From Sphingomonas sp. SCN 67-18 (GTDB lineage: Bacteria > Pseudomonadota > Alphaproteobacteria > Sphingomonadales > Sphingomonadaceae): 64,000 nt of DNA. The number at the start of each line of letters is the position of its first letter. Position 1 is the stretch's first letter. The translations under genes and the position numbers were made by a program. The stretch spans positions 1 to 64,000 of the forward strand of contig NZ_MEFG01000005.1 of NCBI RefSeq assembly GCF_001724715.1, read 5' to 3'. Below are positions 4,633-45,519 of this stretch, piece after piece. The notes beneath the pieces are model-generated. The model ran no database searches. It was not told where the DNA came from and saw only the letters and a list, made by a program, of their open reading frames with translations.

Positions 4633-5205
4633 ATGATAGCCGGATTTGAAATGGGGAAACGGATTCTCGATCTCACTCTAGCGGTTATGCTTGCGCCCTT
4701 TGCCGCGTTCGTCGTTCTGCTGTTCGGAATTCTGATCTTTTCGGAAGATCTGAAAAACCCGCTGTTCAGGCAAATTCGGGTTGGCCGGGATGGGCGTCCA
4801 TTCCTGCTCTTCAAGCTGCGAACGATGCGCGTCGGGACGCCCGATCTTCCTTCCCACGAAGCGTCCTCCGCCCAGTTCACGCGGCTGGGCGGTTTTCTGC
4901 GCCATGTAAAAATCGACGAGCTTCCGCAGATATGGAATGTCATCCGCGGCGACATGAGCTTTGTCGGGCCGCGACCGTGCCTGCCGGCCCAGCAGGAGCT
5001 GATTCATTGTCGTGACGCGCTGGGTTTGTCGAGGCTCCGCCCCGGCATTACCGGCCCGGCGCAGATCGCGGGTCTGGATATGTCGGAACCCGCGCGTCTG
5101 GCGAAGGCTGATGCGCTCTATATCGGGCGTTGGTCGCTCATGCGCGATTTGCGCTACATTGCAGCCACGGTCAGCGGGTCAGGCGCGGGCGATGCGGTGA
5201 AATGA
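4633..5205 (+). CDS. Undecaprenyl-phosphate sugar-phosphate transferase (initiating enzyme)
   Basis: A 190-aa bacterial sugar transferase (PF02397 type) that starts repeat-unit synthesis by transferring a sugar-1-phosphate from a nucleotide sugar to undecaprenyl phosphate at the inner membrane. One N-terminal transmembrane helix (LDLTLAVMLAPFAAFVVLL) precedes the cytosolic catalytic part. Family motifs are FRQIRVGRDGRPFLLFKLRT, then KIDELPQIWNVIRGDMSFVG followed by PRP. It is the short form, without the four-helix N-terminal domain of WbaP/GumD. Start is uncertain between 4633 and 4651, as neither has a strong ribosome site; the longer open frame from 4492 begins in intergenic sequence. Sugar specificity cannot be told. 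Confidence 0.88.
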   Translation: MIAGFEMGKRILDLTLAVMLAPFAAFVVLLFGILIFSEDLKNPLFRQIRVGRDGRPFLLFKLRTMRVGTPDLPSHEASSAQFTRLGGFLRHVKIDELPQIWNVIRGDMSFVGPRPCLPAQQELIHCRDALGLSRLRPGITGPAQIAGLDMSEPARLAKADALYIGRWSLMRDLRYIAATVSGSGAGDAVK

Positions 5206-15339: not shown

Positions 15340-16497
15340 GTGAACGTGGTCCATATCATCACCGGCCTGAATCAGGGCGGAGCCGAAACGATGCTCGCCA
15401 AGATTGTCGGCTCGGTACGGACGTGGCGGCACTCCGTTGTTTCTCTTACCGGCAGCGGCCCCCTTGCGGGCCCTATGGAAGAAGGCGGAGCGTCCATCCA
15501 TTCGCTGGATCTGAAGTCGCTTCGCGGTATCGCCGGGGCGGGCGGGCGCTTGCCGTGGCTGATAAGGAAGCTGCAGCCCGACCTCATCCAGGGCTGGATG
15601 GCGCATGGCAATCTGGCGGCGAGCTACGCGCAGATTTTCTCGCCCTCCGCTCCGTTGGTCTGGAATGTCAGGCAATCGCTTGGCGACCTGCGCTACATGA
15701 AACCGGCGACGCGCAAGATATTGAAGCTTTGCGCTGCCTTTTCTCAGCGGCCGGCCGCGATCATCTATAATTCTCAGGCGGGTGCCGAGCAGCATGAAGC
15801 GCTCGGCTTTCCCGCATCGAGGCGTCGGATTATTGCTAACGGGTTCGATACGTCCCAGTTTTCGTCTGATCCTGCTCAACGTGCGGAAACCAGGCGCGCC
15901 CTGGGAATTGCGCCGGACGATATCGTCATCGGGTTGATCGCGCGGTTCCACCCGATGAAGAACCACATCGGTTTCCTGGATGCCGCCGCACGGATTCTGC
16001 AGCGTTATCCACAAGCGCGTTTCTTGCTGGCCGGACCCGGTGTTTCCGATCTCAATCCGGAATTTCAGTCATTGCTGGGGAATTCCCGGGTCAGGGATCG
16101 ATCGCTTTTCCTCGGTGAACGGGCCGATATGCCGAAGTTGACCGGCGCCCTGGATATTGCGTGCAATGTTTCAGTGCATGGTGAGGGTTTTCCAAATGCA
16201 ATCGGCGAGGCAATGGCGTGTGAGGTTCCCTGCATTGTTACGCCGCAAGGCGATTCCGTCCGGATTGTCGGTGATGCGGGCGCGGTGTGCGCGGACGGGG
16301 ATGACTGCACCATTGCCGCCGCAGTTTGCGGGATGATCGCTGCTGGCCCCGCGAAAATGGCGGCCATGGGGGCATTGGGTAGAAAACGCGTCATAGATCA
16401 TTATTCGATTGAATCGATTGCCGCCCAATATGAGGGCGCTTATTCAGATATTGTTGCGCATCATCGCTTTGGCGCGCCAATCAGACCATCGTCCTAA
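15340..16497 (+). CDS. GT4 glycosyltransferase
   Basis: A 385-aa GT-B glycosyltransferase. The N-terminal nucleotide-independent domain opens VVHIITGLNQGGAETMLAK. The C-terminal domain holds IGLIARFHPMKNHIGFLDAA and, near residue 280, SVHGEGFPNAIGEAMACEVP, the GT4 donor-binding E-x7-E. It resembles WaaG/PelF-like EPS transferases. The start is GTG; no closer ATG fits the family alignment. A 227-nt region without a gene separates it from the divergent polymerase gene and should hold promoters for both. The acceptor sugar is unknown. Confidence 0.87.
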   Translation: MNVVHIITGLNQGGAETMLAKIVGSVRTWRHSVVSLTGSGPLAGPMEEGGASIHSLDLKSLRGIAGAGGRLPWLIRKLQPDLIQGWMAHGNLAASYAQIFSPSAPLVWNVRQSLGDLRYMKPATRKILKLCAAFSQRPAAIIYNSQAGAEQHEALGFPASRRRIIANGFDTSQFSSDPAQRAETRRALGIAPDDIVIGLIARFHPMKNHIGFLDAAARILQRYPQARFLLAGPGVSDLNPEFQSLLGNSRVRDRSLFLGERADMPKLTGALDIACNVSVHGEGFPNAIGEAMACEVPCIVTPQGDSVRIVGDAGAVCADGDDCTIAAAVCGMIAAGPAKMAAMGALGRKRVIDHYSIESIAAQYEGAYSDIVAHHRFGAPIRPSS

Positions 16498-16632
16498 TAT
16501 TTCGCTTCATAGCACAGGGATATCGATTTTCCTGCAGGCGGCGGCTATTGAAATTCCTATGAGCCAGATCTGACTCTCATTGCGCTTTATCACTTGTTCG
16601 ATCAGCGCTGAATCATTCGGGAATCTGAATCT

Positions 16633-18582
16633 ATGTGCGGCATTGCCGGCTATATTGCGCCAGGGGGCTTTCGTGAAAATGACTCACGATCGCTCGATGC
16701 GATGATCGAGGCGATCGTCCATCGCGGCCCCGACGATAGCGGAACATGGTTAGAGCCAGACCTTGGCGTGGCGCTGGGGCACAGGCGTTTATCGATCATT
16801 GATCTTTCGCCGGCCGGGCACCAGCCGATGGCATCGCCGTCCGGTCGCTATGTAATTGTTTATAATGGCGAGATTTACAATCACTCGGATTTGCGCGCCG
16901 AGCTTGATGCGCTGGGCGTGGCGCCGGACTGGCGCGGCCATTCCGATACGGAAATATTGCTGGCCGCCGTCGAGCATTGGGGGCTTGCGGGAACGCTCGC
17001 GCGCCTGAATGGCATGTTCGCATTCGCTCTGTGGGATCGGGCGCAGCGGCACCTGATTCTCGCCCGCGATCGGCTGGGGGAAAAGCCGTTATATTACGGG
17101 CGCTCGGGATCACATTTCCTGTTTGGATCTGAACTGAAGGCGTTGACTGCGCATCCCGCTTTCAAAGGGACGGTGAACCGGGACGCCCTGAGCCTGTACC
17201 TGCGTCACAGCTATATTCCGGCGCCTCACAGCATATGGGATGGCATCTCCAAGCTGCTGCCCGCCCATTATATAGTGATCGGAGCCGACGGCCGTCAGCA
17301 GGGCGAGGCCCAATGCTACTGGGATATCGGGAATGTGGCTGAGCAGGGGGCGTCGTCGCTTCTGCCCGATTCGCCTGAGCTGGTTTCGCAGTTGGAGGAG
17401 CTGCTCGGGGATTCGGTGGCGCGCCGCATGGCGGCGGACGTGCCGCTGGGCGCTTTCCTGTCGGGTGGAATCGATTCTTCCGCCATCGTCGCGCTGATGC
17501 AGGCGCAGTCCACGCGCCCGATCCGCAGTTTCTCCATCGGCTTCCACGAGGATGGCTTCGACGAGGCGCAACATGCCCGTGCGGTGGCGCGGCATCTGGG
17601 AACGGACCACGAAGAACTCTACGTCACCCCCGAAAAGGCGCGCGCCGTCATCCCCGATCTTCCCAGGATCTGGGACGAGCCATTTTCCGATTCATCTCAA
17701 ATTCCCACCTTCCTGGTGAGCGAGATGACCCGCAACCATGTCACGGTTGCCCTGTCCGGGGATGGCGGCGACGAACTGTTCGGCGGCTATGGCCGATATT
17801 CCCGGGCGCACAGACTTGGAAAGGGGATACTGCACGCTCCGTCCGCGGTGCGCGGAGTGGCGGCCGCGGCGCTGCGGTCGCCCGCGCTCGGCAGGGTGGC
17901 GCAGGGTGTCTCCGGCCTATTGCCCGGCCCGTTCAAGACCGCGTCTGTGGCGGACCGGCTTCCCAAGCTGGCGGCGCTGATCGCCAGCGACTCTCCCTCG
18001 GAGCTATACCGGCATCTATGCTCCCATTGGAAAGACCCGGACGCGATCGTGCTGGACGGTCATGAGCCGGAGACGCATTTTACCCTGTCCAGGGCGCAGT
18101 TTGCGGATCCGCGACAGCAGATGATGTATCTGGACATGGTCGGTTATCTGCCCGACGATATCCTTGCCAAGGTCGATCGGGCGAGCATGGCCGTTAGCCT
18201 TGAAACGCGCGTCCCGTTTCTCGACCACAGGCTCGTCGAATTCGCGTGGCGTTTGCCGATGTCGGCGAAGTTCGCACCAGACGGCGGCAAGCGCATCTTG
18301 CGGGACATGCTGGCGCGCCATATTCCGAAAGGGTTGATCGATCGGCCGAAAATGGGTTTTGGCGTGCCGATCGAAAGCTGGCTTCGCGGCCCGCTGAGGG
18401 CGTGGGCGGACGATTTGTTGAGTGAGCAGCGGATCCGCGACGAAGGGTTCTTCGATCCGGTCCCCATCCAGCGATTGTGGCGCGAGCATCAATCGGGCGC
18501 CAGGCGCTGGCACTATCTCTTGTGGGACATTTTGATGTTCCAGGCGTGGTGGGCGGAACATGGGAGGTTCGCTCGAGGGTGA
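16633..18582 (+). CDS. asnB: Glutamine-dependent amidotransferase, asparagine synthase (AsnB) family
   Basis: A 649-aa protein with an N-terminal class II glutaminase domain (nucleophile Cys2 in MCGIAGYI; later [13 protein letters not shown]) and a C-terminal ATP-pyrophosphatase/synthetase domain with the PP-loop SGGIDSSAI near residue 277. Further conserved sites are [15 protein letters not shown] and the [20 protein letters not shown] block near residue 520. Reaction: ammonia from glutamine is added to an adenylated carboxylate. Inside an EPS locus it could amidate a uronic acid in the repeat unit (as WbpS-like proteins are thought to), or simply make asparagine. Family assignment is secure; substrate is inferred from context. 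The next gene begins 8 nt downstream. Confidence 0.92.
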
Positions 18583-44735: not shown

Positions 44736-45331
44736 CCCGCCTCGACGGGGCGATGGAGCGGGCGCACCCCGCCCCGGTGGCGGGGGTGGACGAGGCGGGT
44801 CGCGGGCCGCTGGCCGGGCCGGTGGTCGCCGCCGCCGTCATCCTGCCGGATGGCGATGTCCCGCCCGGCATCAACGACAGCAAGAAGCTGACGGCGCGCG
44901 CCCGCGCGGGGCTGTGCGCGCAACTGCGGGCGGTGGCGCGGGTCGGCGTCGGCATCGCCAGCGTCGAGGAGATCGACAGCATCAACATCCTGCAGGCGAC
45001 GCTGCTGGCCATGACCCGCGCGGTCGCCGCGCTGGGCGTCGCGCCCGGCATGGTGCTGGTGGACGGCAACCGGCTGCCACGCTGGGACCATCCCTCGACC
45101 GCCATCGTCGGCGGGGACGCGCTCTGCCTGTCGATCGCGGCGGCTTCCATCGTCGCCAAGCATGAGCGCGACATGATGATGATCGCCGCCGACGCGCGCT
45201 ATCCCGGCTATGGCTGGGCGTCGAACAAGGGCTATGGATCGCGCGATCATTGCGACGCCTTGCGCAGATTGGGGCCGAGCCCCTTGCACAGGCGGTCTTT
45301 TTCGCCCGTCGCGCAGGCTTTGCTGCTGTGA
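44732..45331 (+). CDS. rnhB: Ribonuclease HII
   Basis: A 199-aa enzyme that cuts RNA in RNA-DNA hybrids and at single ribonucleotides. It has the DEDD acidic set: Asp and Glu in GVDEAGRGPLAGPVVAAAV, Asp in LVDGNRLP, and the later Asp in SIVAKHERDMMM; NDSKKLT and PGYGWASNKGYGS are conserved. Start GTG at 44732 overlaps the thiD stop by 4 nt; the longer frame from 44678 is out of place in the VOC coding region. It ends 188 nt before ccrM. Confidence 0.95.
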   Translation: MTRLDGAMERAHPAPVAGVDEAGRGPLAGPVVAAAVILPDGDVPPGINDSKKLTARARAGLCAQLRAVARVGVGIASVEEIDSINILQATLLAMTRAVAALGVAPGMVLVDGNRLPRWDHPSTAIVGGDALCLSIAAASIVAKHERDMMMIAADARYPGYGWASNKGYGSRDHCDALRRLGPSPLHRRSFSPVAQALLL

Positions 45332-45332
45332 T

Positions 45333-45474
45333 GAGTCTTTATCGCCACACCACTAGTGGTTGAGTCCGCCCCCCGGCCTGCCACGCCACATCTCGTTGGG
45401 GACTCCTTTCGTTCCCGCTTTGGCGCCTCCCGATGTTCCGCGACTCGCGGAAATCCGCGCTTGACGGGCGAGTC
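45333..45474 (+). promoter_or_regulatory. Cluster of five GANTC sites upstream of ccrM
   Basis: GANTC occurs at 45333, 45362, 45401, 45442 and 45470, five sites within 142 nt of the 188-nt gap before ccrM. Chance would give less than one. GANTC is the CcrM target, so this is probably methylation-controlled regulation of ccrM itself, as known in Caulobacter, where two such sites lie in the ccrM leader. The core promoter boxes are not clear. Confidence 0.75.
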
Positions 45475-45519
45475 CCGATGCTTGAGGTTCGCCCGCTGAA
45501 TTGACGGGGACATGGTTAA

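Follow-up and report, generated by a model that had tools for sequence, protein, structure and literature searches.

The sequence upstream of the GANTC methyltransferase gene ccrM in Sphingomonas sp. SCN 67-18 contains five copies of the target of the encoded enzyme, and a comparison with orthologous leaders resolves this accumulation into two conserved parts, a putative core promoter containing CcrM targets and a separate upstream array characteristic of the Sphingomonadaceae. The reading preferred here, which is held with somewhat more confidence than doubt, is that the region combines a GcrA/sigma70 methylation-responsive core promoter with a family-specific upstream switch. As judged from the sites in its own leader, the enzyme probably helps to set its own expression. 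We infer methylation of the leader sites in this organism, GcrA as their reader, and feedback as the net outcome.

The window, i.e., the whole analyzed stretch of 64,000 nucleotides, shows the gene order rnhB-ccrM-folP according to the protein families encoded, with 188 nt between the rnhB stop codon (45329-45331) and the start of ccrM (Table 1). The predicted methylase matches PF01555 with 222.4 bits and the RAMA domain PF18755 with 61.5 bits, both above the respective cut-offs, and aligns over residues 22-368 with the NCBIfam equivalog NF050803 (E 2.3e-182). Since the name of the latter points to the Caulobacterales and the score of 605.6 bits stays below its cut-off of 830, equivalog status is not claimed, and the protein is regarded as CcrM on the basis of its domains and orthology.

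Table 1. Features of the rnhB-ccrM region, in coordinates of the window.
Feature	Position	Strand	Basis
rnhB (ribonuclease HII), upstream neighbor	44753..45331	+	NCBIfam NF000595, E 1.3e-70, above cut-off; PF01351
Upstream element of 85 bp, found specifically in ccrM leaders of Sphingomonadaceae	45331..45415	+	profile matches
GANTC, array site 1, GAGTC	45333..45337	.	sequence; GAGTC in 51/51 rows of alignment A1
GANTC, array site 2, GAGTC	45362..45366	.	in 69/88 non-redundant leaders, always GAGTC
Array site 3, eroded (CACGC; GACTC in relatives)	45382..45386	.	alignment A1; site in 69/88 leaders
GANTC, array site 4, GACTC	45401..45405	.	in 49/88 leaders, GACTC in 48
GANTC, lineage-variable, between array and core promoter	45442..45446	.	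sequence and leader comparison
Inferred -35, TTGACG	45461..45466	+	comparison with orthologous leaders
GANTC in -35/-10 spacer (core site 1)	45470..45474	.	leader comparison
Place of the -10-fused GANTC of relatives (core site 2); GCTTG in the window, lost	45480..45484	.	
Inferred -10, GAGGTT, retaining A (-11) and T (-7)	45484..45489	+	leader comparison
CtrA half-site-like ATGGTTAA, abuts ccrM start	45512..45519	.	motif search in leaders
ccrM, GANTC adenine methyltransferase, 375 aa	45520..46647	+	PF01555, PF18755 RAMA, NCBIfam NF050803

The five GANTC sites counted in a preliminary description of this DNA are indeed present before ccrM and span 142 nt; two are described for the ccrM leader of Caulobacter. 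All five carry G or C as middle base, and 464 of the 608 GANTC sites in a 438-kb sample of the host genome carry A or T. The leader is about 16 times denser in GANTC than the host background of 1.37 sites per kb (determined over 828,494 bp, or 25.7% of the genome), and the window as a whole is depleted, with 122 sites observed against 284 expected from dinucleotide shuffles. At 1.387 sites per kb, a Poisson model predicts 0.19 sites per 142 nt and a probability of 1.8e-6 for five or more at one given place; this value overstates the case, because GANTC clusters in the host beyond the Poisson expectation, as indicated by other five-site clusters. Four places in the host sample contain five GANTC within 142 nt, namely the ccrM leader, a region upstream of dnaA (L213), a stretch at the start of an asparagine-synthase gene of the window, and one inside an N-formylglutamate-amidohydrolase gene (L185, 12074-12195). 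Rarity alone is therefore moderate evidence, and positional conservation in orthologs is stronger.

Some of these places merit a description of their own. In the GANTC-richer part of the window, five sites lie in 114 nt before and into the asparagine-synthase gene (16572-16685). The dnaA leader, identified by three DnaA Pfam domains in the gene product, contains six sites in 183 nt (L213 4697-4879, host contig C15) and a seventh at 4654, and provides a further example of a cell-cycle leader in which CcrM targets are clustered. If GAGTC and GACTC alone are considered, four sites in 142 nt occur in the 828-kb host sample only in the ccrM leader and in L173, where five of them are found in 150 nt (16213-16362, host contig C6) at the start of a minus-strand arginine-tRNA-protein-transferase gene (PF04376/PF04377) and ahead of it. 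This gene is adjacent to a response-regulator gene read as ctrA.

Leaders, defined as the 230 nt upstream of the ccrM start, were collected from 166 loci: the window, 56 relatives mostly representing one genus each (L002-L057), 80 named relatives including close ones (L058-L137), and a class-wide set of 29 (L138-L166), one of which belongs to the Sphingomonadaceae. The class-wide loci are the best 29 of 97 matching genomes among 115 searched, so the group of other Alphaproteobacteria is biased toward close CcrMs. Starts were placed by homology to the start codon in the window; in L138-L166, the most upstream in-frame ATG was taken instead. No match to ccrM was obtained in two of the 59 relatives searched. 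The set of 115 Sphingomonadaceae leaders used for array, DnaA, and CtrA sites includes the window and omits L138, and the set of 115 used for core promoter and densities is composed the other way round.

The claimed over-representation of CcrM targets before their own gene is borne out by this comparison, with at least two GANTC in 162 of the 165 orthologous leaders (115/115 in Sphingomonadaceae, 22/22 in other Sphingomonadales, and 25/28 in other Alphaproteobacteria). The methylation feedback on ccrM and the possible coupling of its transcription to fork passage, which the preliminary description derives from the sites, are predictions. Orthologous leaders devoid of GANTC, which had been named as grounds for rejecting the claim, amount to two (L155 and L163), and one more (L147) has a single site, all three being from the last group. 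The leader densities are 23.9 sites per kb in Sphingomonadaceae, 22.9 in other Sphingomonadales, and 14.9 in the other members of the class, against 1.55, 1.46, and 1.43 per kb, respectively, in the rest of the same loci. As a side aspect, the TGA stop of rnhB forms part of a GANTC site (TGANTC) in 55 of 123 loci with an adjacent rnhB (35/76 in Sphingomonadaceae, 14/22 in other Sphingomonadales, and 6/24 in the other class members); in the window, one base separates the stop codon from array site 1, and there is no TGANTC.

The five sites do not constitute a single cluster, as had been assumed before, but fall into an upstream array (45333, 45362, and 45401), a variable site (45442), and a core-promoter site (45470). 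Sites of the 45442 type, located 106-109 nt after array site 1, occur in 15 of 88 non-redundant leaders and vary between relatives. The core is represented by the pattern TTGA[CT]-N14-GANTC, which was found in 94 of the 165 leaders (64/115 in Sphingomonadaceae, 15/22 in other Sphingomonadales, and 15/28 in the other class members) and is absent from 71; among the leaders mostly chosen as one per genus (L002-L057), it occurs in 41 of 56. A distance of 14 nt between both words forms a peak, and each distance of 6-13 or 15-30 nt is represented by 0-6 leaders per group, while the distances of 1-5 nt after the -35 word belong to a second GANTC in the spacer. In 74 of the 82 leaders containing both core sites, the two gaps add up to nine, which shows that the second site keeps a fixed distance from the -35 word and the first one slides. 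The base following the N14 GANTC is A in 94 of 94 leaders, compared to 11.4% of the host GANTC sites, and four bases further on a T stands in 64% of the leaders with this register, compared to 18% in the host, giving the overall core pattern TTGAC-N14-GANTC-A-NNN-T. Because of the invariant A, the CcrM site looks fused to a -10 element. With a spacer of 17 bp, the GANTC would occupy positions -16 to -12 and C-A-N-N-N-T would represent the -10 element, the C being shared by both; the A at -11 is known as the key base of the -10 element in sigma70 promoters.

Compared with these leaders, the species of the window has lost the -10-fused site, which is replaced by GCTTG with GAGGTT as presumed -10, and has kept the spacer site after TTGACG. 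A GANTC between the inferred -35 and -10, the feature looked for in a GcrA promoter, is thus retained, although the coupling of the core to methylation may be weaker in this species because the -10-fused site is gone. The remaining core site reads C-GAGTC-C and does not fit the extended GcrA motif YGAKTCK (PMC7987155), which fits two of the five sites of the window, at 45333 and, on the reverse strand, at 45442. TTGAC-N14-GANTC has no occurrence in the 828 kb of host sequence sampled, and a host-wide promoter class is therefore not proposed.

A search of 59 genomes with a core model built from 39 leaders (R2) gave matches at E values up to 1 in 45 genomes, including 36 with a match at ccrM, many of them by construction. 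As judged by coordinate comparison, a match is located just before ftsK in eight genomes (G002, G004, G014, G015, G016, G018, G020, and G033), the identity of FtsK being based on an NCBIfam match at E 2.5e-75 as a fragment below cut-off. Nine matches outside ccrM were inspected, of which five lie before ftsK and four elsewhere (G021, G044, a second one in G033, and G019); the weak remaining matches include fifteen in G039. The ftsK gene was matched in 58 of the 59 genomes, and a comparison of 30 of its leaders revealed four with the N14 doublet, one with the second site alone, 14 with a GANTC close after the -35 word (four of these with a second one at 15 bases), and 11 with neither, showing that ftsK leaders share the ccrM core architecture in part. 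The host ftsK leader (L275) reads GACTC-TTGACGCG-GACTC, with the -35 word flanked by two CcrM sites.

The upstream array is part of an 85-bp element which is situated about 120-190 nt before ccrM in the Sphingomonadaceae, a distance also kept at loci without an adjoining rnhB. A profile made from 21 relatives without the window matches the latter at E 1.9e-12, and none of 20 other host stretches (374 kb) is among the 150 matches listed. With a model including the window (R1), the sole match in the host genome is at 45332-45414 (E 1.4e-17), and matches were obtained in 17 of 21 Sphingomonadaceae genomes versus 0 of 14 genomes from other families, every strong one being located at ccrM. The 17 genomes comprise ten contained in the model and seven outside of it (G003, G005, G007, G009, G012, G017, and G020), and the four family genomes without a match are G006, G010, G013, and G019. 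Second matches represent the same places on the other strand, except for a weak one in G014 (E 0.03) at the start of the NADH-dehydrogenase chain-3 gene. Weak extra copies may be missed, because the R1 and R2 genome searches scored 129 and 116, respectively, of the several hundred to 2500 candidates per genome (64/64 in one).

Within the element, up to four GANTC sites occupy fixed places. The anchored array set comprises 108 of 115 leaders, with site 1 fixed by construction, and sites 1-4 are present in 88 (again by construction), 69, 69, and 49 of the 88 non-redundant leaders. The middle bases follow the order GAGTC, GAGTC, GACTC, GACTC nearly without exception, with GAGTC in 69 of 69 leaders at site 2; site 3 is GACTC in 66 of 69 leaders, and site 4 in 48 of 49. 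Additional fixed bases flank the sites, namely ACA-CC after site 1, A-AT after site 3, and GTTC at the end, as seen in the 51 rows of alignment A1. This alignment represents 51 of 91 non-redundant arrays (105 before removal of redundancy), which were chosen mostly by score, omitting high scorers with poor 3' alignment (L008, L009, L014, L021, L031, L097, and L134). The window has kept sites 1, 2, and 4, i.e., three of the four ancestral ones. Since neither the fixed middle bases nor the flanks are needed by CcrM, they imply a second sequence-reading protein, and the array is probably read by something more specific than CcrM.

The same features bear on the idea of a direct autorepression, in which the CcrM protein would bind to its own clustered sites and block RNA polymerase, making GcrA unnecessary. 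Other methyltransferases are known to autoregulate. GANTC sites are available both in and before the promoter, and CcrM contains a RAMA domain and is a dimer with a C-terminal domain binding DNA nonspecifically (PMC6787082). However, the recognition properties of CcrM leave the fixed middle bases and non-GANTC flanks of the array unexplained, and the locking of the core site to the following A points to a reader linked to RNA polymerase, making this mode of control decidedly unlikely.

The inner part of the element has the symmetry of an inverted repeat, and the reverse strand is matched by the profile as well, which may suggest a conserved non-coding RNA or mRNA structure containing the GANTC sites incidentally. 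However, RNAalifold yielded a consensus energy of -0.59 and zero covariation, pairing and covariation of a ten-pair dyad did not exceed those of shuffles, and a comparison of 12 loci with Rfam gave no match above the gathering score of a family; three sub-threshold matches (two in L002 and one in L010) lie on the far side of ccrM, outside the leaders. In view of these three analyses, an RNA structure was rejected as explanation of the element, which is furthermore located upstream of the inferred promoter, and this reading is considered highly improbable.

Two further interpretations of the array were dropped. A second promoter inside of it (TTGAGTC ... GACTCAAYAT) is not claimed, as the spacer would measure 18-20 and the base at -7 is not conserved in A1. 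The distances between pairs of sites cluster near 9, 20, 29, 39, 49, and 68, but helical phasing is not claimed either, because the four main positions go back to common ancestry and run out of phase with a 10.5-bp repeat; a weak test of the minor positions gave R values of 0.24-0.43 by position and up to 0.67 when weighted by leaders. A LexA-like pair of GTTC words was not seen by eye.

The leaders were also searched for DnaA boxes and CtrA sites, counting close relatives separately. Perfect DnaA boxes number 36, distributed over 31 of the 115 leaders, which corresponds to 1.25 per kb, versus 0.007 in the sampled host sequence. The 31 CtrA half-sites belong to 30 of these leaders (1.08 versus 0.005 per kb), and the full CtrA motif TTAA-N7-TTAA occurs in none of the 115, including the window. 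Twelve leaders have a DnaA box after the core, and in ten of these its first base is the final base of the -10 or the one immediately following. The only input of either kind in the leader of the window is the CtrA-like half-site at the start codon, a word found four times in the 828 kb of host sequence sampled, counting this copy. In L066, L075, L076, L088, L091, L094, L108, L117, and L137, array site 2 coincides with or adjoins a perfect DnaA box TGTGGATAA, which gives the impression of one input having taken the place of the other or been added to it.

The enrichment of these boxes and half-sites in the same leaders, together with the fixed ACA-CC, A-AT, and GTTC flanks and the fixed middle bases, would fit to a factor unrelated to methylation, e.g., DnaA, CtrA, or an unknown repressor, which recognizes GANTC merely as part of its motif. 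The flanks may indeed belong to a reader of this kind, but this explanation is considered unlikely, since some lineages have extra GANTC sites about 10 bp from the conserved ones, and the class-wide enrichment of GANTC where the array is absent points to GANTC itself.

In the preferred reading of a methylation-responsive core and an upstream switch, the CcrM target would be built into the RNA polymerase footprint, the last base of GANTC serving as the first base of the -10 element CANNNT, and GcrA would be the likely reader of this site. GcrA is encoded in all 59 genomes searched, including the host, where PF07750 is matched above cut-off in two pieces of one frame (G000:C29); the two pieces, separated by a long linker, were noticed in the host (G000:C29:55604-56224) and in many genomes of the family. 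The open frame of the host protein has 263 amino acids, compared to 173 in GcrA of Caulobacter (PMC7403470). GcrA binds to domain 2 of sigma and prefers fully methylated, then hemimethylated GANTC (PMC7403470, PMC3667746), so promoter activity should follow the methylation written by CcrM, and open complexes at m6A-containing promoters are stimulated by GcrA (PMC7403470). In the upstream element of the Sphingomonadaceae, up to four oriented GANTC sites would bind a sequence-specific factor, either GcrA or another protein, adding a second methylation-sensitive input. As to the sign, methylation-dependent activation at the core is leaned to, and the upstream element would modulate expression separately. 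Methylation of GANTC has been recorded by PacBio sequencing in Sphingomonas sp. AAP5 (PMC8067484).

The opposite sign would result if full methylation silenced ccrM and the hemimethylated state after replication opened it. A model of this type exists for Caulobacter, in which CtrA activates ccrM solely in the hemimethylated state (PMC2217572), and methylation also represses gcrA of A. tumefaciens, which is preceded by six GANTC in 250 bp (PMC11514494). In contrast, the activity of Caulobacter promoters that contain GANTC in or close to this zone depends on the motif (PMC3667746, PMC3708114). Its mutation cripples four of five reporters (PMC3667746), the identity of the middle base is also important at ftsZ and mipZ (PMC3708114), and the activity of both rises with methylation, that of ftsZ being highest in the fully methylated state (PMC3667746, PMC3708114). 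Relief of repression by the passing fork is therefore regarded as rather unlikely. Activation via GcrA would be in line with the observation that those Caulobacter start sites which have a GANTC between -10 and -35 fall into a single timed cluster (PMC4287350). However, GANTC and GcrA are not simply coupled, as only 31% of the GcrA-enriched cell-cycle start sites of Caulobacter have a GANTC within 50 bp (PMC4287350), and the proposed mechanism is not general, since ccrM of Caulobacter is described as activated by CtrA (PMC2217572, PMC3667746) and has reportedly lost GcrA control (PMC7987155).

A more far-reaching version, offered as a tentative and somewhat doubtful proposal, is that the -10 merged with a CcrM target in ccrM promoters outside the Caulobacterales and the four-GANTC array of the Sphingomonadaceae with its DnaA and CtrA sites act together as a multi-site sensor of replication and remethylation. 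If true, CcrM would rewrite the exact bases where RNA polymerase melts ccrM, and a nucleoprotein array unique to ccrM would read several methylation marks at once. To our knowledge, the timing of CcrM synthesis outside Caulobacter has been little studied. The grammar TTGAC-N14-GANTCANNNT and the upstream element, detected at ccrM alone, provide exact bases to be changed and predict the genes sharing this control, namely ccrM and some ftsK. The arrangement would put a DNA methylase inside the melting zone of its own promoter, representing a compact epigenetic feedback. A GANTC near the -10 of Caulobacter promoters may reportedly have been noted already in work by Haakonsen from 2015 and Wu from 2018.

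The closest known systems are the GcrA/CcrM promoters of Caulobacter (ctrA P1, mipZ, podJ, and ftsZ), which also contain GANTC in or next to the -35/-10 region (PMC3667746, PMC3708114, PMC4287350); mipZ even shows two juxtaposed GANTC sites, and GcrA is present in both settings. The ccrM promoters described here differ from them by the target gene, which is the methylase itself, by the fixed N14 distance from TTGAC with the GANTC merged into the inferred -10 (in 94 of 165 leaders), and by the extra 85-bp element upstream. For ccrM of Caulobacter, methylation feedback has likewise been thought probable (PMC3973325), and the CtrA input finds a parallel in the half-sites of 30 of the 115 leaders, whereas the sole CtrA-like half-site of the window abuts the start codon. 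The gcrA gene of A. tumefaciens is similar in having a GANTC cluster before a cell-cycle regulator gene, but represents a different gene and is repressed by methylation (PMC11514494). The same gene and the same inference from promoter GANTC are found in a survey which scored the presence and number of GANTC in one species per order, and regarded ccrM as a probable core target of GcrA whose control was lost in the Caulobacterales (PMC7987155). The promoter register, the array, and the DnaA and CtrA sites are absent from the covered parts of this survey, and no prior description of the fused N14 register or of the array was found in the sections covered of the literature on ccrM and GcrA promoters. 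GcrA control of ccrM is thus an existing prediction (PMC7987155), to which the core architecture and the upstream element are additions.
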